Assembly: GCA_014584695.1 (NCBI GenBank)
Contig: JACTMI010000013.1
Coordinates: forward strand, 1 to 41,132
Source of the DNA: Acidobacteriota bacterium
GTDB lineage: Bacteria > Acidobacteriota > Thermoanaerobaculia > Multivoradales > JAGPDF01
Length of the DNA: 41,132 nt
Direction of reading: 5' to 3'
The notes under the pieces are model-generated. The model was not told the DNA's origin. It saw nothing but the letters and a program-made list of their open reading frames with translations, and ran no database searches. The position numbers and the translations under genes were made by a program. Shown one piece after another: positions 6,946-20,275 of this stretch. Every line of letters starts with the position of its first letter. The stretch's first letter is position 1.

Positions 6946-6970
6946 CGGCCAGCGGCCGGAAACATAAGAT
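6942..6970 (+). promoter_or_regulatory. Sigma70-type promoter
   Basis: TTGACG (6942-6947) and TAAGAT (6965-6970) are separated by exactly 17 bases, close to the sigma70 consensus. The expected transcript start near 6977 lies about 25 bases before ATG 7002. The -35 overlaps the stop codon of the repeat-protein gene. This is the best-looking promoter on the plus strand and may start a second transcript running into the glycosyltransferase block. Confidence 0.6.
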
Positions 6971-7001
6971 CCAGCGCGATTTCCGGGGGGTTCCAGCGCT
7001 C

Positions 7002-7925: not shown

Positions 7926-9956
7926 ATGTGCGGCATTAACGGCATTCTCCGACTGGCCGACGACGCGCCGCGGATCGAGCTCGCCGAGCTGCGCCGCTGC
8001 CGCGACGTGATGGCCGCGCGCGGCCCCGACGGCGCCGGCGAGTGGCTCTCCTCCGACGGCCGCTGCGCCCTCGCCCACCGCCGCCTCGCCATTCTCGATC
8101 TCGCGCCGCGGGCGGCGCAGCCGATGTCCGGCGCCGGCGGCCGCTTCCGCCTGGTCTTCAACGGCGAGATCTACAACTTCCGCGCCCTGCGCGCCGAGCT
8201 CGAGCGGGGCGGCCACCGCTTCGCGACCGAGAGCGACACCGAGGTCCTGCTGGCGCTGTGGGAGCGCGAGGGCGAGCGCGCCCTCGCCCGTCTGCGCGGC
8301 ATGTACGCCTTCGCGCTCTGGGACGCGCGCGAGGAGTGCCTCACCCTGGTCCGCGATCCGTTCGGCATCAAGCCGCTCTACTACTCGCTCGAACGCCAGA
8401 CCTTGCGCTTCGCCTCGCAGGTGCGCGCCCTCGAAGCGGCCGGCATCTCCGCCGAGATCGACCCCGCGGGCCTCGCCGGCTTCCTGCTCTGGGGCTCCGT
8501 CCCCGAGCCCTGGACGATCCGCCGCGCCGTCCGCGCGCTGCCCGCCGGCCACCTGCTGCGCATCCGCCCCGGCGGCCGCCTCGAAGGCCCCGAGCCCTTC
8601 GCGCCGCCGCCGCCGGACCTCGAATCGCCCTCGCCCGAAGCCCCACCGCTCGGCGTCGAAGCCGCGCTCGCCGCGAGCGTCGGGGCGCACCTGGTCTCCG
8701 ATGTGCCGGTCGCGCTGTTCCTCTCCGCCGGGCTCGACTCCGCCCTCGTCGCCGCGCTCGCCGCGCGCGAGCTGGGCGAGCGCCTCTCGACCTTCACCCT
8801 CGCCTTCGAAGGCTGGCAGGGGAGCGCGCGCGACGAGGCGCCGCTGGCGCGCGAGGTCGCCCGCGTCCTGGGCAGCCGCCACGTCGAGCGCCGCCTCGGC
8901 CGCGACGAAGTCGCCGCCGCCTGGCTGCCCGCGCTCGACGCCATGGACCAGCCCTCGATCGACGGCTTCAACACCTTCCTGGTCGCCCGCGCCGCCCACG
9001 AAGCCGGCATCCAGGTCGCCCTCTCGGGCCTCGGCGGCGACGAGCTGCTCGGCGGCTACCCGTCCTTCCGTGACGTCCCGTCCTGGAACCGCTGGGCGAG
9101 AGCTCTGAGCCGAGTCCCCGGCGCGACCAGGATCTGGCCGAGTCTGACCAGAACCGTCACCCGCACCCCCACCCGCACCCTCGGCCGAACTCTCGGCCGA
9201 ACCCTCGCCCCTGCTCGCCCCAAGCTCCCGGGTCTGCTCGAATACGGCACCACGCTCGCGGGCGCCTACTACCTGCGCCGCGGCCTCTTCCTCCCCGAAG
9301 AGCTCCCCGCGCTGATCGGCAGAGACCGCACCGAAGCCGCCCTGGCCGAGCTCCACCCCGTGATCCAAGCCCAACGAGTCCTGGACCAGCTGACCCACCC
9401 CCACCACCCAGGCCACGACCCCGACTCCGCCCTCGACGGAAACCCCGCCCTCGCCCGCAGCCACGCCTCCGACCCCAACAACGCCCCGAACACCCAACGC
9501 CCGCCCCAAGCCCCCCACCCCCCCTTCTATGGATCTTTTGCTTCTTCTTCTTCTTTCTCTTCAGTTTCGGTGAGCTCGAGAGCCCCCACCGACTGGGACC
9601 GAGTCCAGCTCCTGGAAGCCGCGCTCTACCTGAGAAACCAGCTCCTGCGCGACAGCGACTGGGCGGCGATGGCCCACTCGGTCGAGCTGCGCGTCCCGCT
9701 GGTCGACCCGATCCTCTGGTCCCAGCTCGCGCGGCATCGGCACGAGCCCGCGCGCAGCCGAGGCAAGGCGGCGCTGGTCCGAGCCGTCGCCCCGGAGCTG
9801 CCCGCGGCGCTCTGGAGCCGCCCCAAGAGCGGCTTCGTCGTCCCGGTCGCCGAGTGGCTCTGCCCGCCCCGCCCCGGCGAGCGCGACACCGCCGGCAAAG
9901 GCTCCCGCCGCCTGGCGCTGCGCATCCTCGAGGAGACCGGCCTCTGCGCGCGCTGA
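7926..9956 (+). CDS. asnB: Asparagine synthase-like glutamine amidotransferase
   Basis: This 676-residue enzyme has a class II glutaminase domain starting with catalytic Cys2 (MCGINGI), then RGPDG, FNGEIYN and ESDTE. The synthetase domain has the PP-loop LSAGLDS (residues 266-272) and SGLGGDELLGGY. The family transfers glutamine ammonia to an AMP-activated acid: aspartate in AsnB, or a sugar uronate in some glycan loci. The locus context favours amidation of a sugar acid, but asparagine synthesis is not excluded. AGGAGG lies 6 bases before ATG. The synthetase domain carries a repetitive RT-rich patch (about residues 407-429) and a low-complexity insertion (about 489-555) just before the conserved LRNQLLRDSDWAAMAHSVEL block. 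The frame stays open through both. Confidence 0.85.
   Translation: MCGINGILRLADDAPRIELAELRRCRDVMAARGPDGAGEWLSSDGRCALAHRRLAILDLAPRAAQPMSGAGGRFRLVFNGEIYNFRALRAELERGGHRFATESDTEVLLALWEREGERALARLRGMYAFALWDAREECLTLVRDPFGIKPLYYSLERQTLRFASQVRALEAAGISAEIDPAGLAGFLLWGSVPEPWTIRRAVRALPAGHLLRIRPGGRLEGPEPFAPPPPDLESPSPEAPPLGVEAALAASVGAHLVSDVPVALFLSAGLDSALVAALAARELGERLSTFTLAFEGWQGSARDEAPLAREVARVLGSRHVERRLGRDEVAAAWLPALDAMDQPSIDGFNTFLVARAAHEAGIQVALSGLGGDELLGGYPSFRDVPSWNRWARALSRVPGATRIWPSLTRTVTRTPTRTLGRTLGRTLAPARPKLPGLLEYGTTLAGAYYLRRGLFLPEELPALIGRDRTEAALAELHPVIQAQRVLDQLTHPHHPGHDPDSALDGNPALARSHASDPNNAPNTQRPPQAPHPPFYGSFASSSSFSSVSVSSRAPTDWDRVQLLEAALYLRNQLLRDSDWAAMAHSVELRVPLVDPILWSQLARHRHEPARSRGKAALVRAVAPELPAALWSRPKSGFVVPVAEWLCPPRPGERDTAGKGSRRLALRILEETGLCAR
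9146..9210 (+). repeat. Degenerate 12-nt tandem repeat inside asnB
   Basis: Successive 12-base units such as ACCCGCACCCCC and CTCGGCCGAACT encode a repeating TRTPTRTLGRTLGRTL pattern. The unit length is a multiple of three, so the reading frame is kept. It looks like slippage expansion in a surface loop. Confidence 0.55.
9391..9591 (+). repeat. Low-complexity insertion inside asnB with TTC run
   Basis: A C-rich stretch encoding Pro/His/Asn/Ala-rich sequence is followed, at about 9523-9570, by an AT-rich patch with repeated TTC encoding a Phe/Ser run. The conserved synthase sequence resumes at DWDRVQLLEAALYL. The base composition is sharply unlike the surrounding DNA. The roughly 66-residue insert keeps the frame and has no counterpart in typical family members. 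Confidence 0.55.
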
Positions 9957-11152
9957 TCGCGACGATCCCGCCCGGCCGCGGCGGCGTTCCGGCGATGCTC
10001 CGCGCCGCGCTCGCCCTGCTGGCCGAACGGGGGATCGAGGCCGAGGTCGCCTGGTACGAGCCCTACCGGATGACGCCGCGCCTCTCCGTCCCCTCCTATC
10101 GCCTGGGAACGCGCCGGCCGCGCGCCGAGCGACGGGAGGTCGATGGCGCCGCAGCGGGCTGGGCGATCGGCGCCTGGCTGCCCGAGCTCGAATTCACCCA
10201 CTATCGACCGACTCCGCTCTGGAGAGAGCGGATCGCGACGGCCGACCTCCACCTGGTCGTCTCCGGCACGGCGCTCGCCGGCCTCGCCTTGGAGCGCACC
10301 GCGACGCCGTTTCTCGCCTGGATCGCGAGCGACTGGGAGGGAGATCGCCGGGCACGCGTCGCCGCCTTCCCGGCCCCCCGCCGGCTCCTCGACCGGCTGG
10401 TCGTCGCGCCCGCCTGCCGCCGCCTCGAGCGCCGCATCCTCCGCGCCGCGCACCTGCTCGCCCTCTCCGAGCCGACCCACCGCGCCCTCGACCAAGCGGC
10501 TGGCACCTCGGTGGTGCGGGCAAGGCTGCCGGCGCCAGTCGATCTCGAGCTCTTCCGCCCGGCGCCGGAGCGGGTGATCGCCGGGCGGGTCGGCCTGGTC
10601 GGCCGCTTCGACGATCCCAGGAAGAACACCGGCCTCTTCCTGGCCGCGCTCGCCCGCGCCCGCGAGAGCTCGCCCGCGACGAGCGGCCTGCTGGTCGGCG
10701 CCCAGGCGTCGCCCGAGCTGCGGCGCGAGATCGCCCGCCGCGGTCTCGACGGCGCGATCGAGATCGCCGGCGAGCTCGACCGCGCCGCCTACGCCGAGCG
10801 CCTCGCCACCCTCGACCTGCTCGCCGTCACTTCCCACCAGGAGGGTTTCCACATCGCCGCGCTGGAGGCCATGGCCTGCGGCTGTCCGGTCGTCGCGACG
10901 CGCTGCGGCGGCCCGGAGGAGCTGGTGGTCAACGGCGAGACCGGATTCCTGACCGGCTTCGATGCCGACGAGATCGCCCGCCGCCTGGTCGAGCTCGGGA
11001 GCGATCGCTCGCTGCGCCATCGGTTCGGCGCCGCGGGGCGTGCCAAGGCCGAGCGGAGCTACGGCTGGGAGCGCGTTCGTGAGATCTTCGGAGCGGAGCT
11101 GGAAGCCCACCTGGCGCGCCGCCCGGGGCGCGGCGCCCGCACTGACCCATGA
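9944..11152 (+). CDS. Glycosyltransferase family 4, probable CTG start
   Basis: This is a 402-residue GT-B retaining glycosyltransferase. The N-terminal strand and loop (LRALIATIPPGRGGVPAM) match the usual GT4 start. The C-domain has VGLVGRFDDPRKN, TSHQEGFHIAALEAMACGCP and GGPEELVVNGETGF, which carry the nucleotide-sugar-binding E-x7-E region. No ATG, GTG or TTG lies just before the first strand: ATG 9995 would remove it and GTG 9854 lies deep in asnB. CTG 9944 has AGGAG (9931-9935) 8 bases upstream. CTG 9953 overlaps the asnB stop as CTGA. The donor and linkage cannot be predicted. Confidence 0.8.
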   Translation: MRALIATIPPGRGGVPAMLRAALALLAERGIEAEVAWYEPYRMTPRLSVPSYRLGTRRPRAERREVDGAAAGWAIGAWLPELEFTHYRPTPLWRERIATADLHLVVSGTALAGLALERTATPFLAWIASDWEGDRRARVAAFPAPRRLLDRLVVAPACRRLERRILRAAHLLALSEPTHRALDQAAGTSVVRARLPAPVDLELFRPAPERVIAGRVGLVGRFDDPRKNTGLFLAALARARESSPATSGLLVGAQASPELRREIARRGLDGAIEIAGELDRAAYAERLATLDLLAVTSHQEGFHIAALEAMACGCPVVATRCGGPEELVVNGETGFLTGFDADEIARRLVELGSDRSLRHRFGAAGRAKAERSYGWERVREIFGAELEAHLARRPGRGARTDP

Positions 11153-11247
11153 GAGCCGAGCCGACCCCAGCGTCGATCCGAGTCCGCCGCGCGAGCGCGC
11201 GGACGGCGGAGCGCGCGGCCTCGACGCCGGAGCCGCCCCCCGCATGA
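11149..11247 (+). CDS. Possible 32-residue relay ORF
   Basis: A 32-codon open frame starts at ATG 11149 in an ATGA overlap with the upstream stop and ends at TGA 11245-11247 in an ATGA overlap with the next start. It exactly fills the gap between two glycosyltransferase genes. The product is basic and Ala/Pro-rich (MRAEPTPASIRVRRAS...) with no recognised domain. It may serve to keep ribosomes coupled across the gap and have no product function, or it may be a chance open frame in GC-rich DNA. Confidence 0.35.
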   Translation: MRAEPTPASIRVRRASARTAERAASTPEPPPA

Positions 11248-12290
11248 GCGACGCGCTGGAAGTCTCGGTCGTGCTGGCCGTGCGCGACGGCGAGCGCGAG
11301 CTCGCGGCGACGCTCGACAGCATCTTGGCGCAGCGCGGTGTCGCCTTCGAGGTGATCGCCGTCGACGACGGCTCGCGCGACGGCACGCCGGCGCTGCTCG
11401 CCGCCGCGGCGATGCGGGAGCCCCGCTTGCGGCTCGTCCGTCAGGAGCGGATCGGACTGACGCCGGCCCTGGCGCGCGGCTGCGCGGAAGCGAGCGCGCC
11501 GGTGATCGCCCGGCAAGACGTCGGCGACCTGTCGCACCCCGACCGGCTGGCGCGCCAGAAGGCGCTGCTCGATCGTCACCCCGAGGTCGTCCTGGTCTCC
11601 TGCTGGACCGCTTGCGTCGGCCCGGCGGCGGAGCCGCTCTACATCGAGACGAAGAGCGGCGAGCCCGGCCGACCGCTCGACCTTTTCGCCGCGACGGACC
11701 CGGAGCGGACGGCCGCGGGGCCGACCAGCCACGGCTCGGCGCTCTTCCGGCGCGCGGCCTACGAGGCCGCCGGCCGCTACCGCGAGCAGTTCGCCCTCGG
11801 GCAGGACTGGGACCTCTGGTGCCGCCTGGGCCTGCTCGGCAAGTTCGCCATGGTCGGCGCCGCGCTCTACCTGCGCCGGCTGCAGCCCCGCTCGCTCGGC
11901 TTCGGCGCCCACGACCTGCAGCGCCGCTTCGGCGAGCTGGCGCGCGCCGCGGCGGCGCGCCGCCGCGCCGGCGAGGACGACCGCGACCTGCTGGCCGCGG
12001 CGGCGCGGCTCTCGGCCCGCTTCGCCCGCGAGCGCGAGGCGCGCCTGCGGCACAGCGAGACGCTCGGCAGCTACCACCTCGGCGCCCTGCTGCGCGAGCT
12101 GGGCGAGCCCGCCGCCGGGGCCTACTTCGCCGCCGCGCTGCGCCGACGCCCCTGGCTGTTGCGAGCCTGGGCGCGCTGGATCCAGTCGCGTCTCCGGCCG
12201 CGCCCGCGGCGCAAGGCGGCCGGTTTCGACACGCCGGAGGCGGCGGAGCTGCTGGCGGCCGCTGCCGGGGAGCGGAGGGCGGCGGCGTGA
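11244..12290 (+). CDS. Glycosyltransferase family 2
   Basis: This 348-residue GT-A fold enzyme starts with VSVVLAVRDGERELAATLDS and EVIAVDDGSRDGT, the nucleotide-binding start of GT2. IARQDVGDLSHPDRL stands where the DxD-like motif normally is (here QDVGD), and FALGQDWDLWCRL is the acceptor-side ED-like motif, here QDWDLW. The C-terminal third is Arg/Ala-rich and helical and may bind the membrane surface. ATG 11244 overlaps the relay ORF stop as ATGA. It probably adds one sugar to the lipid-linked repeat unit; the substrate is unknown. The polymerase gene follows with a GTGA overlap. Confidence 0.82.
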   Translation: MSDALEVSVVLAVRDGERELAATLDSILAQRGVAFEVIAVDDGSRDGTPALLAAAAMREPRLRLVRQERIGLTPALARGCAEASAPVIARQDVGDLSHPDRLARQKALLDRHPEVVLVSCWTACVGPAAEPLYIETKSGEPGRPLDLFAATDPERTAAGPTSHGSALFRRAAYEAAGRYREQFALGQDWDLWCRLGLLGKFAMVGAALYLRRLQPRSLGFGAHDLQRRFGELARAAAARRRAGEDDRDLLAAAARLSARFAREREARLRHSETLGSYHLGALLRELGEPAAGAYFAAALRRRPWLLRAWARWIQSRLRPRPRRKAAGFDTPEAAELLAAAAGERRAAA

Positions 12291-13696
12291 CGCCCTTCCT
12301 CCTCCTGCTCGGCGCCGCGGTGCTCGCCGTCTGTCTCTTCGACTGGCGCCGCGGTCTGCTGCTCTGCCTCTGCGTCGGCTTCGCCCAGGACCCCATCCGC
12401 AAGCTCCTCCCCGGTCGCCCGGTCGCGCTGGTCGTCGCCGTGGCGCTCTGCTTCGTCGTCTGCATGGTCGGTCTCTTCGCCCGCGGCGACCGCTTGGGCC
12501 TGCAGCGCCTCTTCCGTTGGTTCCCGCGGGTACGGCCGGCGGCGGCGGCGTTTCTCCTGGTCGTCCTGCTGCAGGCCTTCGCCACCGTCCTGCGCACGGG
12601 CAACTCGGTGCTCGCCGGCATCGGGCTGCTCTCGTACTTGAGCCCGCCACTCGCGCTGCTGCTCGGCGAGCGCTACGTCAGCGACCTCGCCCGCTTCCAG
12701 CGCTGGGTCCGGTGGTACCTGGCGGGGAGCCTCTGCGCCGGAGGCACCGTGCTGCTGCAGGCTCTGGGGTGGAATCCGCAGGTGTTCGCGTCGATCGGGT
12801 TCGAGTGGGTCTACGGCGCGAGCGGCGCCGTCCAGATGCTGAACGGCATCCTGCGCTCTTCGGAGATCGCCGCCTGGCACGCCGCGGCGGGCTGCTGCCT
12901 GCTGAGCGCCTGGGCGATCGGCGCGCGCACCTCCAAGGTGCGCTGGATCGGCGGCGTCGCCGCCGCCGCGCTGTTGGCGGCGGTCTTCCTCACCGGCCGG
13001 CGGAAGATGCTGGCCGAGATCGCTCTCTTCGCCGTGATCTACGGCGTGCTGCTCTTCCATCACCGCCGGGGTGCTTCGCGGGCGGTGCAGTTCGGCGCCG
13101 TCGCCGTGCTCGTCGCCCTGGTCGGTGTGCAGCTGCGCGGCGGCGACGAGTCGGGGCCGGAGCTGGGCGCCTACTTGACCCGCGGCGCGACCGTCTTCGC
13201 GGACGCCGGCGAGCGGTTGGGGGGAATGACGATCGGGATGTTCGCCTCGATCATCAGCAGGAACGGGCTGCTCGGCTCCGGGGCCGGGACCGGCGCCCAG
13301 GGCTCCCAGTACTTCGGCGGCGGCACGGCGATCGTCGGCGGCGCGGCCGAGGGGGGAATGGGCAAAGTGCTCGCGGAGCTCGGCGTGCCCGGACTGGTGG
13401 CGCTCGCCTGGCTCGGCATCGCGCTGGGTCGCGTCGTCTTCCGCATCGTCCGCTTCGCCCGGTCGTGCCCCGCGCACCAGGCGCTCCGTCTCTATGGCCT
13501 CGCCGCCTTCCTGCCCGCGAACGCCGCGGTCTTCCTCACCGCGCATCAAGTCTTCGGCGACCCGTTCGTCCTCATCGTCCTCGGCCTCGTCACCGGCTCG
13601 ATCCTGGCCTTCCCGAAGATCGTGCTGCGTGAGCGGCTGAGTCTCGGCGCGCAGGCGCCGGTGCCCACCGCGCCGGCCGGAAGGCGGGTGGCGTGA
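12287..13696 (+). CDS. O-antigen ligase/Wzy-like polymerase
   Basis: This is a 469-residue multi-pass membrane protein with about 10-12 hydrophobic segments, such as FLLLLGAAVLAVCLF, VALVVAVALCFVVCMVGLF and LVALAWLGIALGRVVF. A larger extracytoplasmic loop (about residues 275-365) contains GLLGSGAGTGAQGSQYFGGG and ends near GKVLAELGVPGL, a layout typical of Wzy polymerases and O-antigen ligases, which cannot be told apart by sequence alone. It would polymerise or transfer lipid-linked repeat units in the periplasm. Its presence alongside an ABC exporter is noteworthy. The start is GTG 12287 in a GTGA overlap, and the end overlaps the next GTG in the same way. Confidence 0.78.
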   Translation: MTPFLLLLGAAVLAVCLFDWRRGLLLCLCVGFAQDPIRKLLPGRPVALVVAVALCFVVCMVGLFARGDRLGLQRLFRWFPRVRPAAAAFLLVVLLQAFATVLRTGNSVLAGIGLLSYLSPPLALLLGERYVSDLARFQRWVRWYLAGSLCAGGTVLLQALGWNPQVFASIGFEWVYGASGAVQMLNGILRSSEIAAWHAAAGCCLLSAWAIGARTSKVRWIGGVAAAALLAAVFLTGRRKMLAEIALFAVIYGVLLFHHRRGASRAVQFGAVAVLVALVGVQLRGGDESGPELGAYLTRGATVFADAGERLGGMTIGMFASIISRNGLLGSGAGTGAQGSQYFGGGTAIVGGAAEGGMGKVLAELGVPGLVALAWLGIALGRVVFRIVRFARSCPAHQALRLYGLAAFLPANAAVFLTAHQVFGDPFVLIVLGLVTGSILAFPKIVLRERLSLGAQAPVPTAPAGRRVA

Positions 13697-14859
13697 AGAT
13701 CCTCCACGTCGTGCCGAGCTATCTGCCCGCCTGGCGCTACGGCGGGCCGATCCGCTCGGTGCACGGGCTCTGCCGCGCGCTCGCCGCGGCCGGACACGAG
13801 GTCGCCGTGGCGACCACGAACGCCGACGGCCCCGGCCGGCTCGACGTACCGCTGGGAGTGCCGGTCGATCGCGACGGCGTCTGCGTCCGCTACTTTCCGC
13901 TCGCCTTCCCGGCGCGGCTCTACCGTTCGCCCGAGCTGCTCGCCTGGGCGCGCCGCGAGATCGAGCGTTTCGACCTCGTCCACCTGCACTCGGTCTTCCT
14001 CTGGCCGACCTCGGCGGTGGCGCGGGTGGCACTGGAGCGCAACCGGCCCCACCTGCTCTCTCCGCGGGGGATGCTCTCGCCGCCCCTCATCGCCGGCCGC
14101 GGGCGGCTGCGCAAGCGGCTCTGGATAGCGCTGGTCGAGCGCAAGACGCTCTCGGACTGTGCGCGAATCGTCGTGACCAGTGGGATCGAAGCTGCTTGGG
14201 TCCGCTCCCTAGGTCTCGACCTTTCGCCTCTCGTCGAGATTCCGAACGGCGTGGACCCCTCCGAGCTCACGTGCGACGAGTCACGGCCCGCCTCTGGAGC
14301 CGTCGCCGAGGTGATCCGTCGCGGACCCTACGCCCTCTTCCTCGGCCGCCTCTCGTGGAAGAAGCGAATCGACCTCGCCATCGGCGCCCTGACCGCCCTG
14401 CCCGGCGCGCGTCTCGTCGTGGCCGGGCCCGACGACGAGGGGCTCCGCCCCGGCCTCGAGGCCCTGGCGCGCGAGCGAGGAGTCGAGGACCGCGTCTCCT
14501 TCTTGGAGACGCTGGTCGGCAGAGACCGCGTCGAGGTCTTGCGTGCCGCGAGAGTCGCGTGGCTCCCCTCGGCATCGGACAACTTCGCCAACGCGATCCT
14601 CGAATCTCTTGCTTGCGGCGTGCCCGCCGTCGTAACGCTCGGAGTCGGTCTCGCCGCCGCGATCGAGCGATTCGGCGCCGGCCAGGTGGTCGAGCCGAGC
14701 GAGGGAGCGATCGCGCGGGCATCAGAGGGCTACTTCCGCGACGCCGCGAGCGCTCGGGAGGCAGGAGAGAGAGGGAGGACCCTGGTCTCTTCCGAGTACA
14801 CCTGGAGTGCCGTCGCCGGCCGCATGGCCGCGGTCTACGAGGAGGTCCTCGCGGCATGA
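13693..14859 (+). CDS. Glycosyltransferase family 4
   Basis: This 388-residue GT-B enzyme begins MKILHVVPSYLPAWRYGGPI, the nucleotide-sugar GT4 signature with an xGGPxRSV loop (GGPIRSVHGL). HLHSVFLWPTSAVAR and LLSPRGML follow, then C-domain motifs LFLGRLSWKKRID, LPSASDNFANAILESLACG and VEPSEGAI. It is related to WcaI/WbuB-like transferases in capsule loci; the acceptor is unknown. GTG 13693 overlaps the polymerase stop and the stop overlaps the next ATG. Third-position GC is near saturation in the first half and clearly relaxed from about base 14150, which may mark a recombination junction inside the gene. Confidence 0.85.
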   Translation: MKILHVVPSYLPAWRYGGPIRSVHGLCRALAAAGHEVAVATTNADGPGRLDVPLGVPVDRDGVCVRYFPLAFPARLYRSPELLAWARREIERFDLVHLHSVFLWPTSAVARVALERNRPHLLSPRGMLSPPLIAGRGRLRKRLWIALVERKTLSDCARIVVTSGIEAAWVRSLGLDLSPLVEIPNGVDPSELTCDESRPASGAVAEVIRRGPYALFLGRLSWKKRIDLAIGALTALPGARLVVAGPDDEGLRPGLEALARERGVEDRVSFLETLVGRDRVEVLRAARVAWLPSASDNFANAILESLACGVPAVVTLGVGLAAAIERFGAGQVVEPSEGAIARASEGYFRDAASAREAGERGRTLVSSEYTWSAVAGRMAAVYEEVLAA

Positions 14860-15719
14860 GCGAGAAGGTCCCGCTGACCGTCGTGCTGGCGACACGCAAC
14901 GAGGAGGCGAACCTCGAGTCGACGCTCGCATCGGTCTCTTCGTGGGTGGACCAGATCATCGTCATCGACTCCGAGAGCTCGGATCGCACGGTCGAGATCG
15001 CGCGTGGGCACGGAGCCGAAGTGGCATCTCTCCCCTACGAGCACGGCAGGATCATCCCGTGGATCTTCCAATGGGCTCTCGACCATCGGGAGATCAGGAA
15101 CGGGTGGATCCTGATCCTCGAAGCCGATCAGCGGGTCTCCGACGGCCTGCGGTGGGAGATCGCTCGGGTCGTTGCCGATGTCAACGAGACCCGCTCGGGC
15201 TTCTACATCCGGCGCTGTCAGGTCTTCCGCGGCAAGCCGATCCGCTTCGGCGGTTACGGCAGCAAGCGTCTGCTGAAGCTGTTCCGCCGCGGAGCAGGCG
15301 AGCTCGATCCTGTCGAGCAGGACACGCGGGTCTACGTACGTGGCGAAGTGGGAACTTTGCGGTCCCCGCTGATCGAGTGGAACCGCAAGGAGGACGACAT
15401 TCTCTTCTACCTGGAGAAGCACTTGCGCTACGCGGAGGCATTCGCCCGCGAGGAGCACCGCCGCAGGACGGAAGCACTCGCCTTCAAGGGGAGAGCCAGG
15501 CTCTTCGGCTCGCCGGACGAACGGGTGCTCTGGCAGAAGCGGATCTGGTTCAGAATGCCGCTCTTCCTCCGCCCGTTCCTCTACTTCTTCTGGCGCTACT
15601 TCCTGCTGCTAGGGTTCCTGGACGGTAGCCGAGGCGCCCTCTTTCATTTCTTGCAGGCCTTCTGGTTCCGTCTCGTCGTCGACGTCAGGCTCGCGGAACT
15701 GCGGCGGGCCGGCAAGTGA
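14856..15719 (+). CDS. GT2 transferase, WaaE/KdtX-like
   Basis: This 287-residue GT2 enzyme has LTVVLATRNEEANLESTLAS, DQIIVIDSESSDRT and WILILEADQRVS (the DxD-type motif). The C-terminal part is aromatic and basic (RPFLYFFWRYFLLLGFLDG), typical of WaaE-like lipopolysaccharide glycosyltransferases that sit at the membrane. It has the usual DSxSxDxT pattern of this subgroup. ATG 14856 overlaps the upstream stop as ATGA. Its stop overlaps a GTG (15716) that opens a 79-codon small frame. Confidence 0.85.
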   Translation: MSEKVPLTVVLATRNEEANLESTLASVSSWVDQIIVIDSESSDRTVEIARGHGAEVASLPYEHGRIIPWIFQWALDHREIRNGWILILEADQRVSDGLRWEIARVVADVNETRSGFYIRRCQVFRGKPIRFGGYGSKRLLKLFRRGAGELDPVEQDTRVYVRGEVGTLRSPLIEWNRKEDDILFYLEKHLRYAEAFAREEHRRRTEALAFKGRARLFGSPDERVLWQKRIWFRMPLFLRPFLYFFWRYFLLLGFLDGSRGALFHFLQAFWFRLVVDVRLAELRRAGK

Positions 15720-15955
15720 AGCGCAGCCGTCCCGACGGCTGTGACGGCTGCGGCCCGGAGGACGCGTCGTGCGGGGAGCGCCGCTCGAAGCAGGAGGCGC
15801 GGCGCTCGAGCGAGGGCCAGCGGATGGCTCTCGCGGGCGGCACCGGCCGACGGCCGGGGCAAAGTGCCACGGCCAGGGGTCGGGAGGCCACTGCGCGCGA
15901 GTACGCCGGGTCGAAGCGGGATCAGGGGCCGCAGGCGCAGCGAGTGAGCGCATGA
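15716..15955 (+). CDS. Possible 79-residue relay ORF, basic, Cys-containing
   Basis: This frame starts at GTG 15716 in a GTGA overlap and ends at TGA 15953-15955 in an ATGA overlap with the PP-loop gene, so it tiles the gap exactly. The product is strongly polar, rich in Arg, Gly, Ser and Glu, with C9, C12 and C19 (DGCDGCGPEDASC). Third positions are mostly G or C, like real genes here. No domain is recognised and there is no membrane segment. It may be a small protein, a spacer kept open for translational coupling, or a decayed gene end. Confidence 0.4.
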   Translation: MKRSRPDGCDGCGPEDASCGERRSKQEARRSSEGQRMALAGGTGRRPGQSATARGREATAREYAGSKRDQGPQAQRVSA

Positions 15956-17121
15956 GGGTCCTCGAGCCTCGACTTTCCCGCGAGGGCGAAGAGTTCGTCT
16001 ATCGAGCCACGGTGACGACTGCCGGTCGATCGTCCGACCTCTGGTACCGGGTCCCAGGCGAATTCGGCGCGCTCGTGTCGCGGCGATCCGACGCCGCCCT
16101 GGTTGCGCTGATCCTGCCGGCGATGGCGGCGGGCGAGGACCTGGAGTTCGAGGGCACGGTCTCCGAGCGATTGCTCGTCGCCCTCTCAGGTCCGTTCCAG
16201 CGGCTCGTCTGCCAGCTCCTGCCCAGTCTGCGGCCGACGAAGATCGACGCGCACGATGTCCGCGCGGCGGCGGGGGAGCGAGCGCCCGGTGTGGCGACAG
16301 GGTTCTCGGCGGGCGTCGACTCCTACGCCGTCTTGGTCGACTACCACTTCCGATCTGCCCCGAGGCGGCACAAGATCACCCACCTCCTCTTCAACGACGT
16401 CGGCTCCCATGGCGACGGTGGCGAGCGCCTGTTTCGGGCGCGACTGAGCCGGCTCCTACCTGTTGCGGCGAACCTGGGCTTGCCCATCGTGCCAGTGAGC
16501 TCCAATCTCGAAGCGTTCTATGACAGGCGGCTCGACTTCCAACGCACGCACACGGTGCGGAATCTCTCGGTGGCGTTTCTCCTCCAGGAGGGAGTCGGCA
16601 GCTTTCTCTACGCCTCGACCTTCAGCTATGCCGACCTCTTCGTCGGGCCCACCCACGACATGGCCTGCGCCGATCCGCTGATTCTGTCGCTACTGTCCAC
16701 GGAGACTTGCGAAGCCGTCTCGGTCGGCAGCGAATACACAAGGGTCGAGAAGACGCTGCGAGTCGCTGAGCTCCCGATTTCTCACCAGACCCTCGATGTG
16801 TGCGTACATGGTGCTCATCTCGGGCCACGCACGAACTGCGCTGCCTGCTGGAAGTGCCTCCGTACGCTCCTGACTCTGGAGATCGCGGGCAAGCTCGAGC
16901 TCTACGAGCCCTGTTTCGACCTCGAGGTCTACCGTGCCAATCGGCGTAGGGGCTGCGAGCTGCTGCTCTCGGGCGCCGACCCCCTCCAGCGCGAAGTCCT
17001 CCGCTTCGCCGTGGATCGGGGATTCGAGCTTCCGCTCGCCGCTCGCCTCCTCAGCTTGCCCCTCGTCCGCCGAATCACCAGCTTGGCCCGGCGCGCGAGA
17101 GTGAGGCTCGCGTCCAACTGA
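15952..17121 (+). CDS. PP-loop ATPase-like protein with CxxCxxC site
   Basis: This 389-residue protein has a central PP-loop, TGFSAGVDSYAV (F118 to S124), the SGGxDS-type motif used by enzymes that adenylate a substrate (QueC, ThiI, asparagine synthase and sugar amidotransferases). A C-terminal CAACWKC (C296, C299, C302) is a likely zinc or iron-sulfur site, followed by LRTLLTLE. It resembles the loosely annotated QueC-like proteins of glycan loci more than true QueC or WbpG, because it has an extra N-terminal domain of about 110 residues. A role in activating a sugar or acid for modification next to the carbamoyltransferase is a guess. ATG 15952 sits in an ATGA overlap. Its stop forms TGATG with the next small frame. 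Confidence 0.65.
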   Translation: MRVLEPRLSREGEEFVYRATVTTAGRSSDLWYRVPGEFGALVSRRSDAALVALILPAMAAGEDLEFEGTVSERLLVALSGPFQRLVCQLLPSLRPTKIDAHDVRAAAGERAPGVATGFSAGVDSYAVLVDYHFRSAPRRHKITHLLFNDVGSHGDGGERLFRARLSRLLPVAANLGLPIVPVSSNLEAFYDRRLDFQRTHTVRNLSVAFLLQEGVGSFLYASTFSYADLFVGPTHDMACADPLILSLLSTETCEAVSVGSEYTRVEKTLRVAELPISHQTLDVCVHGAHLGPRTNCAACWKCLRTLLTLEIAGKLELYEPCFDLEVYRANRRRGCELLLSGADPLQREVLRFAVDRGFELPLAARLLSLPLVRRITSLARRARVRLASN

Positions 17122-17300
17122 TGAAATCGAACGGCCGCCTCTTGCCCCGGGCTGGGGACTCTGAGATCTTGCGAAGCGTGAATGGCGCAGCTGCAAGAGG
17201 TGCAGGACCAGACCGACTTCGAGGTGCTCGATTCGACGCGCCCAGTCCGGTGACAGTCGCAAGGCCAGCCGGCCAGTATACAGTGGAGACCGGTCACTGA
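17121..17300 (+). CDS. Possible 59-residue relay ORF
   Basis: ATG 17121 shares its A with the stop of the PP-loop gene (TGATG), and 59 codons later the TGA (17298-17300) overlaps CTG 17297, the only plausible start of the carbamoyltransferase. The whole 175-base gap is therefore open and coupled at both ends. The product (MKSNGRLLPRAGDSEILRSV...) is basic with no known domain. Codon use is more relaxed than in the GC-rich flanks, like that of the neighbouring genes. It could be a real small protein, a leader that feeds ribosomes into the carbamoyltransferase, or chance. Confidence 0.4.
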   Translation: MKSNGRLLPRAGDSEILRSVNGAAARGAGPDRLRGARFDAPSPVTVARPAGQYTVETGH

Positions 17301-19081
17301 ACCGCCTCCTCGGTCTCTCCGTCTATCACGCCGACTCTTCGGCCGCCGCGGTCGAGGGGGGACGTTTCGTCGCCGGCGTTGAGGAGGAGCGGTTCCGGCG
17401 GGTCAAGCACTGGGCGGGCTTCCCAGCGCACGCGCTTCGTTGGTGCGCAGGCGAGGTCGCTGGCGAGGATCTCGCTTCGATCGAAGCGGTCGCAGTCGCC
17501 CGTGAACCCAGGGCCTACCTCGGGCGGAAGCTGGTCCTCGCGCTCGCCCACCCCCATAGCCTGAGACGCGCTGCGGGCCGGGCCAAGAACCTGCGCCAGG
17601 TCTCCGCCCTGGGCGAGGAGGTGGCGGCGACCCTCGGAGTCGCGCCCAGGGTGATTCCGGTCGAGCACCATCTGGCGCATCTCGCCTCCGGCTTCTTTTG
17701 CTCCCCTTTCGAGGAGGCCGCCTGCCTCTCGGTCGACGGCTTCGGCGACTTCGTCTCGACGATGGTCGCCCACGGCCGGGGGAGTCGGATCGAAGTTCTG
17801 GATCGCGTGTGCTATCCGCACTCGCTCGGCGTCTTCTACACGGCGATGACGCAGTTCCTCGGCTTCCCGAGCTTCGGCGACGAGTACAAAGTGATGGGTC
17901 TTGCCGCCTACGGCGAGCCCCGATTCGTCGACGAGGTCCGCCGCCTGGTTCCGGCGCGCGGCGACGGCTCCTTCGCCCTCGACCTCACGTACTTCCGGCA
18001 CTTGACCGAGGGGGTCGACATGACCTGGGAGGAGGGCTCACCCACGCTGGGGACCCTCTTCACCCCAAAGCTCGAGGAGCTCCTGGGCCCGGCACGGAAT
18101 TCCGCGGCAGAGCTCACCCAGCGGGAGAAGGACATCGCCGCTTCGATGCAGGCCGTCTACGAGGAGCGCTTCTTCGACCTGGTGCGGAAGACACTGACCG
18201 CCACCGGGTCGAAGCGACTGGCGCTCGCCGGGGGCTGTGCCCTCAACTCGCTGGCGAACGGCAAGCTGTTCGAGCGGACCGACGTCCGAGAGATTTTCAT
18301 CCAGGCCGCCGCGGGAGACGCTGGCACTTCGCTCGGCGCCGCGCTCTGGGCGCACCACGCCGTCCTCGGCCGGCCGCGCGACGGCTTCGTCATGGAGCAC
18401 TCCTGTTGGGGGCCGGAGTTCGATGCGGGCACGGTCCGCCGGGCGATCGCGCTCGCGCTCCCCGGCTCCGAGGCGCGCGACGGGCGCTACGCGGTCGACG
18501 GGGGTGAGCTCCAGATTCGGACCGCTCTGGACGAGGAGACCCTAGTCCGAGATACGGCCCGAGCGATCGCCTCGGGCCTGGTTGTCGGCTGGTTCCAGGG
18601 GCGCTCGGAGTGGGGCCCGCGCGCGCTGGGCAACCGCTCGATTCTCGCCGACCCGAGGCGCGCCGACATGAAGGAGATCTTGAACCGCAAGATCAAGCGC
18701 CGGGAGTCGTTCCGCCCCTTCGCGCCATCGATACTCGAGGAGCGGACGGGCGAGTGGTTCACCGAGAGCTACCCGGACCCCTTCATGCTCAAGGTCTATC
18801 CGATCCGCCCGGAAAGGCGAGCGGAGGTGCCCGCCGTCACCCACGTCGACGGCACCGGCCGGCTCCAGACAGTCTCAGAGCGCTCGCACCCACGCTACTA
18901 TCGATTGATCCGCGCTTTCGAGGCCGAGACCGGAGTGCCGATGGTGCTCAACACGTCGTTCAACGAGAACGAGCCGATCGTGAACACACCCGAGGAAGCG
19001 CTCGACTGCTTCCTGCGGACGCGAATGGATCAGTTGGTGATGGGAGGCGTGGCGCTGAGGCGAGTCGAGCCCGCTGTGTGA
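17297..19081 (+). CDS. Sugar O-carbamoyltransferase (NodU/CmcH family), CTG start
   Basis: This 594-residue enzyme would use carbamoyl phosphate and ATP to carbamoylate a hydroxyl, here probably on a polysaccharide sugar. The N-domain starts LLGLSVYHADSSAAAVEGG, then VEEERFRRVKHWAGFP, the metal-binding HHLAH (residues 124-128) and DGFGD (147-151). The YrdC-like C-domain has GRSEWGPRALGNRSIL, RESFRPFAPSIL and NTSFNENEPIVNTPEEA. Between an in-frame stop at 17162 and base 17621 there is no ATG, GTG or TTG in frame. GTG 17621 would delete 108 residues, including the HADSS and EEERF motifs. CTG 17297 has GGAG (17285-17288) 8 bases upstream and overlaps the relay ORF stop as CTGA. The full length fits the family. 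Confidence 0.88.
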   Translation: MNRLLGLSVYHADSSAAAVEGGRFVAGVEEERFRRVKHWAGFPAHALRWCAGEVAGEDLASIEAVAVAREPRAYLGRKLVLALAHPHSLRRAAGRAKNLRQVSALGEEVAATLGVAPRVIPVEHHLAHLASGFFCSPFEEAACLSVDGFGDFVSTMVAHGRGSRIEVLDRVCYPHSLGVFYTAMTQFLGFPSFGDEYKVMGLAAYGEPRFVDEVRRLVPARGDGSFALDLTYFRHLTEGVDMTWEEGSPTLGTLFTPKLEELLGPARNSAAELTQREKDIAASMQAVYEERFFDLVRKTLTATGSKRLALAGGCALNSLANGKLFERTDVREIFIQAAAGDAGTSLGAALWAHHAVLGRPRDGFVMEHSCWGPEFDAGTVRRAIALALPGSEARDGRYAVDGGELQIRTALDEETLVRDTARAIASGLVVGWFQGRSEWGPRALGNRSILADPRRADMKEILNRKIKRRESFRPFAPSILEERTGEWFTESYPDPFMLKVYPIRPERRAEVPAVTHVDGTGRLQTVSERSHPRYYRLIRAFEAETGVPMVLNTSFNENEPIVNTPEEALDCFLRTRMDQLVMGGVALRRVEPAV

Positions 19082-19116
19082 GAGTCGCCGTCGGCGCGGT
19101 GCCCCCTCCACCATGA
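19078..19116 (+). CDS. Possible 12-residue relay ORF
   Basis: GTG 19078 overlaps the carbamoyltransferase stop (GTGA), and 12 codons later TGA 19114-19116 overlaps ATG 19113 of the methyltransferase (ATGA). It encodes MRVAVGAVPPPP. It is too short to be assigned a protein role. Its interest is that it repeats the layout of the three longer relay frames. Confidence 0.25.
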   Translation: MRVAVGAVPPPP

Positions 19117-20084
19117 CCAGCCCAGCGCGGCCTCCAACTCTCCTTGAGCGGGTGGCGTTCACTCTCTGTCACATATCTCGACGAGCGCCCCGTCTTAGAG
19201 GCCGGGATCGAGTGATGCTGGCGCTGCTTGCGGCGACCGGTGCCGTACGGCAGCGGCGCAGAGTCGTGACCCGCCTCACCCGGCCGGTGCCCTATCTCGC
19301 CGAGCTCGACCTCGGCAGCTGGCTCCAGCGATTGGCCTTCGTGAGCGGAGGCTACGAGCCTGAGCTGCCACTCCTTCTCACGCGGCTGCGGGAGCTGCAT
19401 CCAGCCAGCGGTGCTCTGCTCGACGTCGGCGCCAACGTCGGATTGATCTCGATTCCGGCCGCGCTGCTGATACCGACGAATGCCGGAGTCGAGGCCCAGG
19501 TCATCTCCTTCGAGCCCGCACCGGAGAATGTCCAGGCACTCCGGGGGAATATCCAGCGGAATGCTCTCGGCCCTAGGGTCCAGGTGGAAGCCCGTGCCTT
19601 GGGGGAGCAACCCGCGACCGCCTGGATCGAGGTCGAACGCTCACCTGAGAAGATCGCAGGGTCCGGGACGGCCAATCTGTTGCCTTCTGGCCAGGAAGGC
19701 CGGCTAGGCGCAGAACCCGTGGAAGTGGCCACGTTCGATGGCTTGAAGCAGGGCGGCTGGCTTGCACCGCCCATCTCGGTGGTGAAACTCGATACCGACG
19801 GCTACGACCTGATGGCTCTCAGGGGTGCCCTGTCGTTGTTGCGCGACGATCGCCCCTTCGTCGTGGGAGAATTCAGCGCCCACTGCATCGCGTGGCACGG
19901 GCAGACGATTGCCGATGTCGTCTCGTTCGCCCGCCGGCATGCCTATCGTGTTGCCTACCGTTGCCAATGGGATCGCCTCGGGTACAGCCTGGAGCCGCCG
20001 ACGCAGTTCAAAGATGACCTCCTGCTGGTGCCAGGCGAGTTGGAGAACCTCTTGGTCCGCTTCAGCGCGGTATTCCGAAGGTAG
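19113..20084 (+). CDS. FkbM-family methyltransferase
   Basis: This 323-residue class I SAM-dependent methyltransferase has motif I LLDVGANVGLISI (D104 to G110), the acidic strand end VISFEPAPENVQALRGNI, and the FkbM hallmark VVKLDTDGYDLMALRGA with RPFVVGEF. The family methylates hydroxyls on sugars and other metabolites. Here it may O-methylate a repeat-unit sugar or cap the chain. An N-terminal basic, hydrophobic stretch of about 80 residues precedes the fold. ATG 19113 lacks a clear Shine-Dalgarno but sits in an ATGA overlap with the 12-codon frame. It ends in TAG, unusual here where most genes end in TGA. Confidence 0.85.
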   Translation: MTSPARPPTLLERVAFTLCHISRRAPRLRGRDRVMLALLAATGAVRQRRRVVTRLTRPVPYLAELDLGSWLQRLAFVSGGYEPELPLLLTRLRELHPASGALLDVGANVGLISIPAALLIPTNAGVEAQVISFEPAPENVQALRGNIQRNALGPRVQVEARALGEQPATAWIEVERSPEKIAGSGTANLLPSGQEGRLGAEPVEVATFDGLKQGGWLAPPISVVKLDTDGYDLMALRGALSLLRDDRPFVVGEFSAHCIAWHGQTIADVVSFARRHAYRVAYRCQWDRLGYSLEPPTQFKDDLLLVPGELENLLVRFSAVFRR

Positions 20085-20140
20085 GTGTAGAAGAAGGTGC
20101 TTGGTTCTCTGGCCTGGGCCGGAGAGCGACCAGGACAGCG

Positions 20141-20275
20141 ATGGAGCGAGCGTGCCCGAAGGTCTTGAAGGGACTTCGTGTCGTACGCGAGGAAGTAGGA
20201 TGCATAGGGGCGGGCAGCAACCCGGCGGTGCGGTGGATCGAGAATCCAGGATCTCGCGTTCGGAGGCTGGAGTGA
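20141..20275 (+). CDS. Possible 44-residue small ORF before wzm
   Basis: ATG 20141 opens a 44-codon frame (MERACPKVLKGLRVVREEVG...) whose TGA (20273-20275) overlaps GTG 20272 of wzm as GTGA. Unlike the other relay frames it is not coupled to the upstream gene: the fkbM stop is 57 bases away. The rest of the 187-base gap shows no convincing promoter. It may be chance. Confidence 0.2.
   Translation: MERACPKVLKGLRVVREEVGCIGAGSNPAVRWIENPGSRVRRLE

Follow-up and report, generated by a model that had tools for sequence, protein, structure and literature searches.

The window analysed here comprises 41,132 nucleotides from an Acidobacteriota bacterium (contig C44; genome size 4.35 Mb) and carries, on its forward strand, a surface-polysaccharide operon in which an asparagine-synthase-like gene, several GT4 and GT2 glycosyltransferase genes, a NodU/CmcH-type carbamoyltransferase gene, and an FkbM methyltransferase gene were recognized. 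Most adjacent genes of the operon are joined by 4-base overlaps (ATGA or GTGA), and overlaps of -4 and -1 are the commonest gene spacing in this genome. Putative ABC-transporter genes, identified by eye, are located downstream of the polysaccharide genes. A stretch of low complexity, made up of runs of C-rich and TTC-repeat sequence (gcttcttcttcttctttctcttcag), was also noticed by eye at 9500-9580 within the asparagine-synthase-like gene (7926-9956). For the GT4 gene that ends at 11152, a CTG start is possible at 9953, over the previous stop (CTGA). The translation from this position (LIATIPPGRGGVPAML) resembles a GT4 N-terminus, the nearest standard start is the ATG at 9995, and no homologue was found to decide between the two.

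The part of the operon that is most relevant here contains four genes on the same strand: a GT2 glycosyltransferase gene (p5, 14856-15719; PF00535), a gene of unnamed family (p6, 15952-17121), the carbamoyltransferase gene (p7, 17297-19081; PF02543 and PF16861), and the FkbM-family methyltransferase gene (19113-20084, predicted start). A PP-loop-like motif (TGFSAGVDS) could be seen by eye in p6, which matched no Pfam or NCBIfam model. Distant relatives of p6, with 28-33% identity, occur as multi-copy clusters in two genomes, G083 (C156, 36.9-47.8 kb) and G098 (C36), and no close homologue of either p6 or the FkbM gene was found in related genomes.

Four spacers in this operon are each crossed by a small open frame that overlaps both the stop of the upstream gene and the start of the downstream gene. 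The first frame (11149-11247, 32 codons, ATGA at both ends) spans the 91-nt spacer between the GT4 gene and a GT2 gene (11153-11243), the second (15716-15955, 79 codons, GTGA upstream and ATGA downstream) the 232-nt spacer between p5 and p6 (15720-15951), the third (17121-17300, 59 codons, TGATG and CTGA) the 175-nt spacer between p6 and the carbamoyltransferase gene (17122-17296), and the fourth (19078-19116, 12 codons, GTGA and ATGA) the 31-nt spacer between the carbamoyltransferase and FkbM genes (19082-19112). All four had been pointed out in a sequence-only reading of this DNA, and locating them by script confirmed that they are open, that they overlap both neighbours, and that their coordinates are exact.

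The downstream starts of these gaps differ in their backing. For gap 1, the alignment of the following GT2 protein with its homologues begins at residue 2-3. For gap 3, the apparent start is CTG 17297, over the stop of the gap frame; homology of the carbamoyltransferase reaches residue 1-2, the CTG aligns with the position at which its relatives start with GTG or ATG, no in-frame ATG, GTG or TTG occurs before 17621 (more than 300 nt), and a GGAG lies 5' of the CTG with approximately 8 bases between them. Either the CTG is in use or this base is an assembly error. The starts after gap 2 (ATG 15952) and gap 4 (ATG 19113), predicted for genes that lack a close homologue, are plausible.

Several features indicate how readily such frames can arise. 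The base before an upstream TGA always makes an NTG, and a downstream start followed by A gives a TGA, so such end motifs come at little cost. No stop codon is present in any of the six frames of gaps 1 and 4, nor in three of the six frames of gaps 2 and 3, and the openness of the gaps is nothing special. The sequence-only reading had regarded chance as a serious alternative, on the grounds of rare stops in GC-rich DNA and a phase match of one in three, and this proved to be the reading that survived best. When the end motifs were held fixed, the gap length was randomized modulo 3, and the interior was shuffled with dinucleotides preserved, the probability of tiling given the ends (frame match and openness) was 0.33, 0.15, 0.07, and 0.33 for gaps 1-4, respectively. 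In the permutation test suggested at the time, tiling was thus an event of moderate probability for each gap (0.07-0.33); the four together have a nominal P of approximately 0.001. The product of one-third times openness over the four gaps is 0.00125. For the 11 spacers in the window that measure 9 nt or more, the genome's own tiling rates predict 0.52 tiled gaps (P for four or more = 0.0012). Although nominally unusual, this is weak evidence, because a genome like this one offers roughly 100 windows of the kind and the pattern was picked post hoc. Both end motifs are present in five spacers of the window; four of these tile, and the remaining one (6946-7001) does not have the required phase. 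No tiling is seen in six further spacers, among them the one that follows gap 4 (20085-20271, after a TAG stop).

A comparison of the gaps in related genomes had been proposed as a check for conserved frames and overlaps. The relatives could be compared, but the frames and overlaps offered nothing to follow, since none of the relatives carries the gaps and the corresponding genes abut with 4-base overlaps. In three of them (G033, G020, and G015), the genes corresponding to p5 and p7 (64-72% protein identity) are adjacent and share a GTGA or ATGA overlap, while the window has p6 together with the two larger spacers at this position. In two others (G027 and G012), different genes fill the p5/p7 junction with hardly any spacer. 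Moreover, the GT2 gene in G007 that matches the one after gap 1 starts with an ATGA right over the stop of the preceding gene. Judged from these alignments, at least gap 1 at its right end, gap 2 at its left end, and gap 3 at its right end carry overlap motifs still present in relatives. Because the same genes overlap directly by 4 bases there, the end motifs are probably relics of lost overlaps, and they can be explained without any relay of ribosomes. The arrangement also suggests that p6 was inserted here and not lost elsewhere.

Chance in GC-rich DNA, combined with such leftover overlap motifs, is therefore favoured as the likely origin of the four frames, which would then not be genes and, in all likelihood, would have no functional role either. 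The operon would be a mosaic, with genes inserted or swapped into 4-base overlap junctions, and the resulting spacers would retain the old motifs, that is, an NTG before the upstream stop and a downstream NTG followed by A. Because stops are scarce at a GC content of 63-84%, a frame that stays open from one end to the other would need little beyond the right gap length, a one-in-three matter. With regard to these gaps, we infer both that insertions gave rise to them and that the frames lack a function. Two observations count against chance: four tiled spacers in a row (nominal P of approximately 0.001) exceed the maximum in the initial 1.6 Mb sample of the same genome, where any run of four spacers contains at most three that tile, and the same architecture is enriched in spacers shorter than 60 nt, so that the prior for a relay is not nil.

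Other signals in the gaps were also sought. Searches of the organism's own genome with gaps 1-3 returned only the query and short chance matches, indicating single-copy sequences, while gap 4 was too short for such a search. The gap sequences are unrelated to each other and differ in length. A 58-nt match of gap 2, considered as a possible repeat, lies in an apparent obgE-type GTPase gene and was taken as a chance GC-rich resemblance. No RNA family in Rfam matched the gaps at the gathering score, and terminators and promoters were not detected there beyond the shuffled expectation. Folding was somewhat better than that of shuffles only for the first part of gap 2, where several strong hairpins in series are predicted at 15710-15850 (z -2.2; 7 of 200 shuffles equal).

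The foremost rival to chance is a translational relay, which the sequence-only reading had also raised. Here, ribosomes ending at the upstream stop would restart on the overlapping NTG and cross the spacer while translating a meaningless peptide, an idea that is considered rather unlikely; with the same modest prospects, the ribosome would end on the next start, the genes staying coupled and the spacer being shielded from Rho. The ends and phases fit this idea in all four gaps. Reinitiation has been reported to disappear almost entirely when the distance reaches about 20 nt (PMC10666635), so that coupling across a spacer could be preserved by a frame of this kind; studies with a longer reinitiation reach are cited in a review (PMC12548453). 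The weak CTG start of the carbamoyltransferase could be helped by coupling, but with the GGAG upstream this gene could also initiate unaided. Other spacers of the same operon are untiled, and conservation cannot be shown, as no relative carries the gaps.

A wider view of spacer tiling was obtained from 2.0 Mb of the same genome (loci L018-L037, L178-L217, L227-L246, and L267-L286), in which 1108 codirectional gene pairs were defined by a home-made gene caller without a check against curated annotation. Compared with shuffles, tiling was more frequent than expected in spacers of 9-30 nt (17 seen vs. 6.8 expected) and slightly so in those of 30-60 nt (6 vs. 3.6), but not in spacers of at least 60 nt (6 vs. 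6.5). The lengths of gaps 1-3 (91, 232, and 175 nt) thus show no excess, and gap 4 (31 nt) is the only one of the four within the range where tiling may exceed chance here. Among relay-phase spacers shorter than 60 nt, an NTGA start followed a start-bearing stop (A, G or T before TGA) in 35 of 52 cases, compared with 24 of 86 after CTGA stops (P 8e-6) and with 9 of 50 in other phases (P 5e-7), these P values having been computed after several subdivisions were viewed. Frames from start-bearing stops also run out of frame far into the next gene more rarely than frames from CTGA stops. These findings suggest real restarting over stop codons, together with selection on where such ribosomes end. 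In a separate observation, start-bearing stops were nearly absent from same-frame short spacers (7/88).

The signature in short spacers favours the relay, although it did not replicate elsewhere: pooled GC-rich loci of other taxa lacked it (2 vs. 3.7 expected at 9-30 nt), as did, with small numbers, a Sinorhizobium plasmid and one genome belonging to the same order. An absence of phase bias in codirectional spacers has been reported across 530 genomes (PMC2784483), so that a phase bias in this genome, if real, would be lineage-specific. Taken by length, a relay is unlikely for gaps 1-3 but possible for the 31-nt gap 4, and the earlier suggestion of relay frames, still unproven, holds to that extent. 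If relays were true, they would show how operons stay coupled after gene exchange and would represent a class of translated non-protein ORFs overlooked by annotation. The genome-wide short-spacer pattern provides a cleaner testing ground for this idea than the four gaps.

Two further explanations depend on the coding content of the gaps. The frames matched no Pfam family, and the open frames on either strand gave only one weak sub-threshold match (E 0.014). No convincing homologue of the gap frames was found in 59 related genomes, the best match being partial (E 8e-4, 38-52% identical). The codon-position composition of the frames is unlike that of the neighbouring genes, although this test is weak for the frames of 12 and 32 codons. 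GC at the three codon positions is 0.75/0.70/0.86 in the gap 2 frame and 0.69/0.63/0.56 in the gap 3 frame, both of which miss the position-2 dip of the neighbouring genes. In terms of coding score, the gap 2 frame is the highest and the gap 3 frame the lowest of their three forward frames, and the gap 1 frame is beaten by another forward frame.

It is improbable that the frames are what is left of genes that have since decayed and that were formerly coupled, through 4-base overlaps, to the genes on either side. Such genes would explain both end motifs, in-frame deletions would explain the phase, and gene content at the p5/p7 junction does vary among relatives; however, the near-complete lack of Pfam matches and the lack of convincing protein or DNA matches in relatives argue against this origin. 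That at least the 79- and 59-codon frames encode real small proteins, an option also offered by the sequence-only reading, is hardly credible and lacks support, since the open frames, the start codons at coupled positions, and the score of the gap 2 frame are set against missing families and homologues and little or no codon-position signal. For chance with relic ends, the present case serves as a warning that end-to-end frames arise easily in GC-rich operons, as overlap motifs outlast gene swapping.

With respect to known systems, the end motifs of the gaps are the usual -4 and -1 overlaps of NTGA termination-reinitiation coupling (PMC10666635, PMC6728339). Directly coupled pairs overlap or lie within about 20 nt of each other, whereas the genes here are separated by 91, 232, 175, and 31 nt, beyond the reach of direct reinitiation, and could be coupled only through translation of the spacer frame. 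Short upstream ORFs and bicistronic designs (PMC12548453; PMC13255528) similarly use a nonsense peptide solely to bring the ribosome to the next start; they have their own ribosome-binding site, whereas a relay frame would rely on the ribosomes of the upstream gene. Mycobacterial interspersed repetitive units (MIRUs; PMC12548453, citing Supply et al. 1997) are the nearest known parallel for a spacer frame that shares a 4-base overlap with an adjacent gene. These contain a short frame with a -4 nt stop/start overlap with a flanking gene, which is thought to limit the effect of the insertion on expression, and the gap frames likewise overlap the upstream stop and the downstream start. MIRUs, as presented there, are a family of repeated elements, in contrast to the single-copy, mutually unrelated gaps of unequal length that were searched here; where three relatives have a GTGA or ATGA junction, the insert in the window is a whole gene with two spacers. 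By analogy, it is conceivable, if rather unlikely, that a gene cassette landed in a 4-base overlap and that meaningless frames spanning the spacers were kept to hand ribosomes between genes, which would be a MIRU-like principle without the repeat and one aspect of a broader selection, within this lineage, on the restart frame over stop codons.
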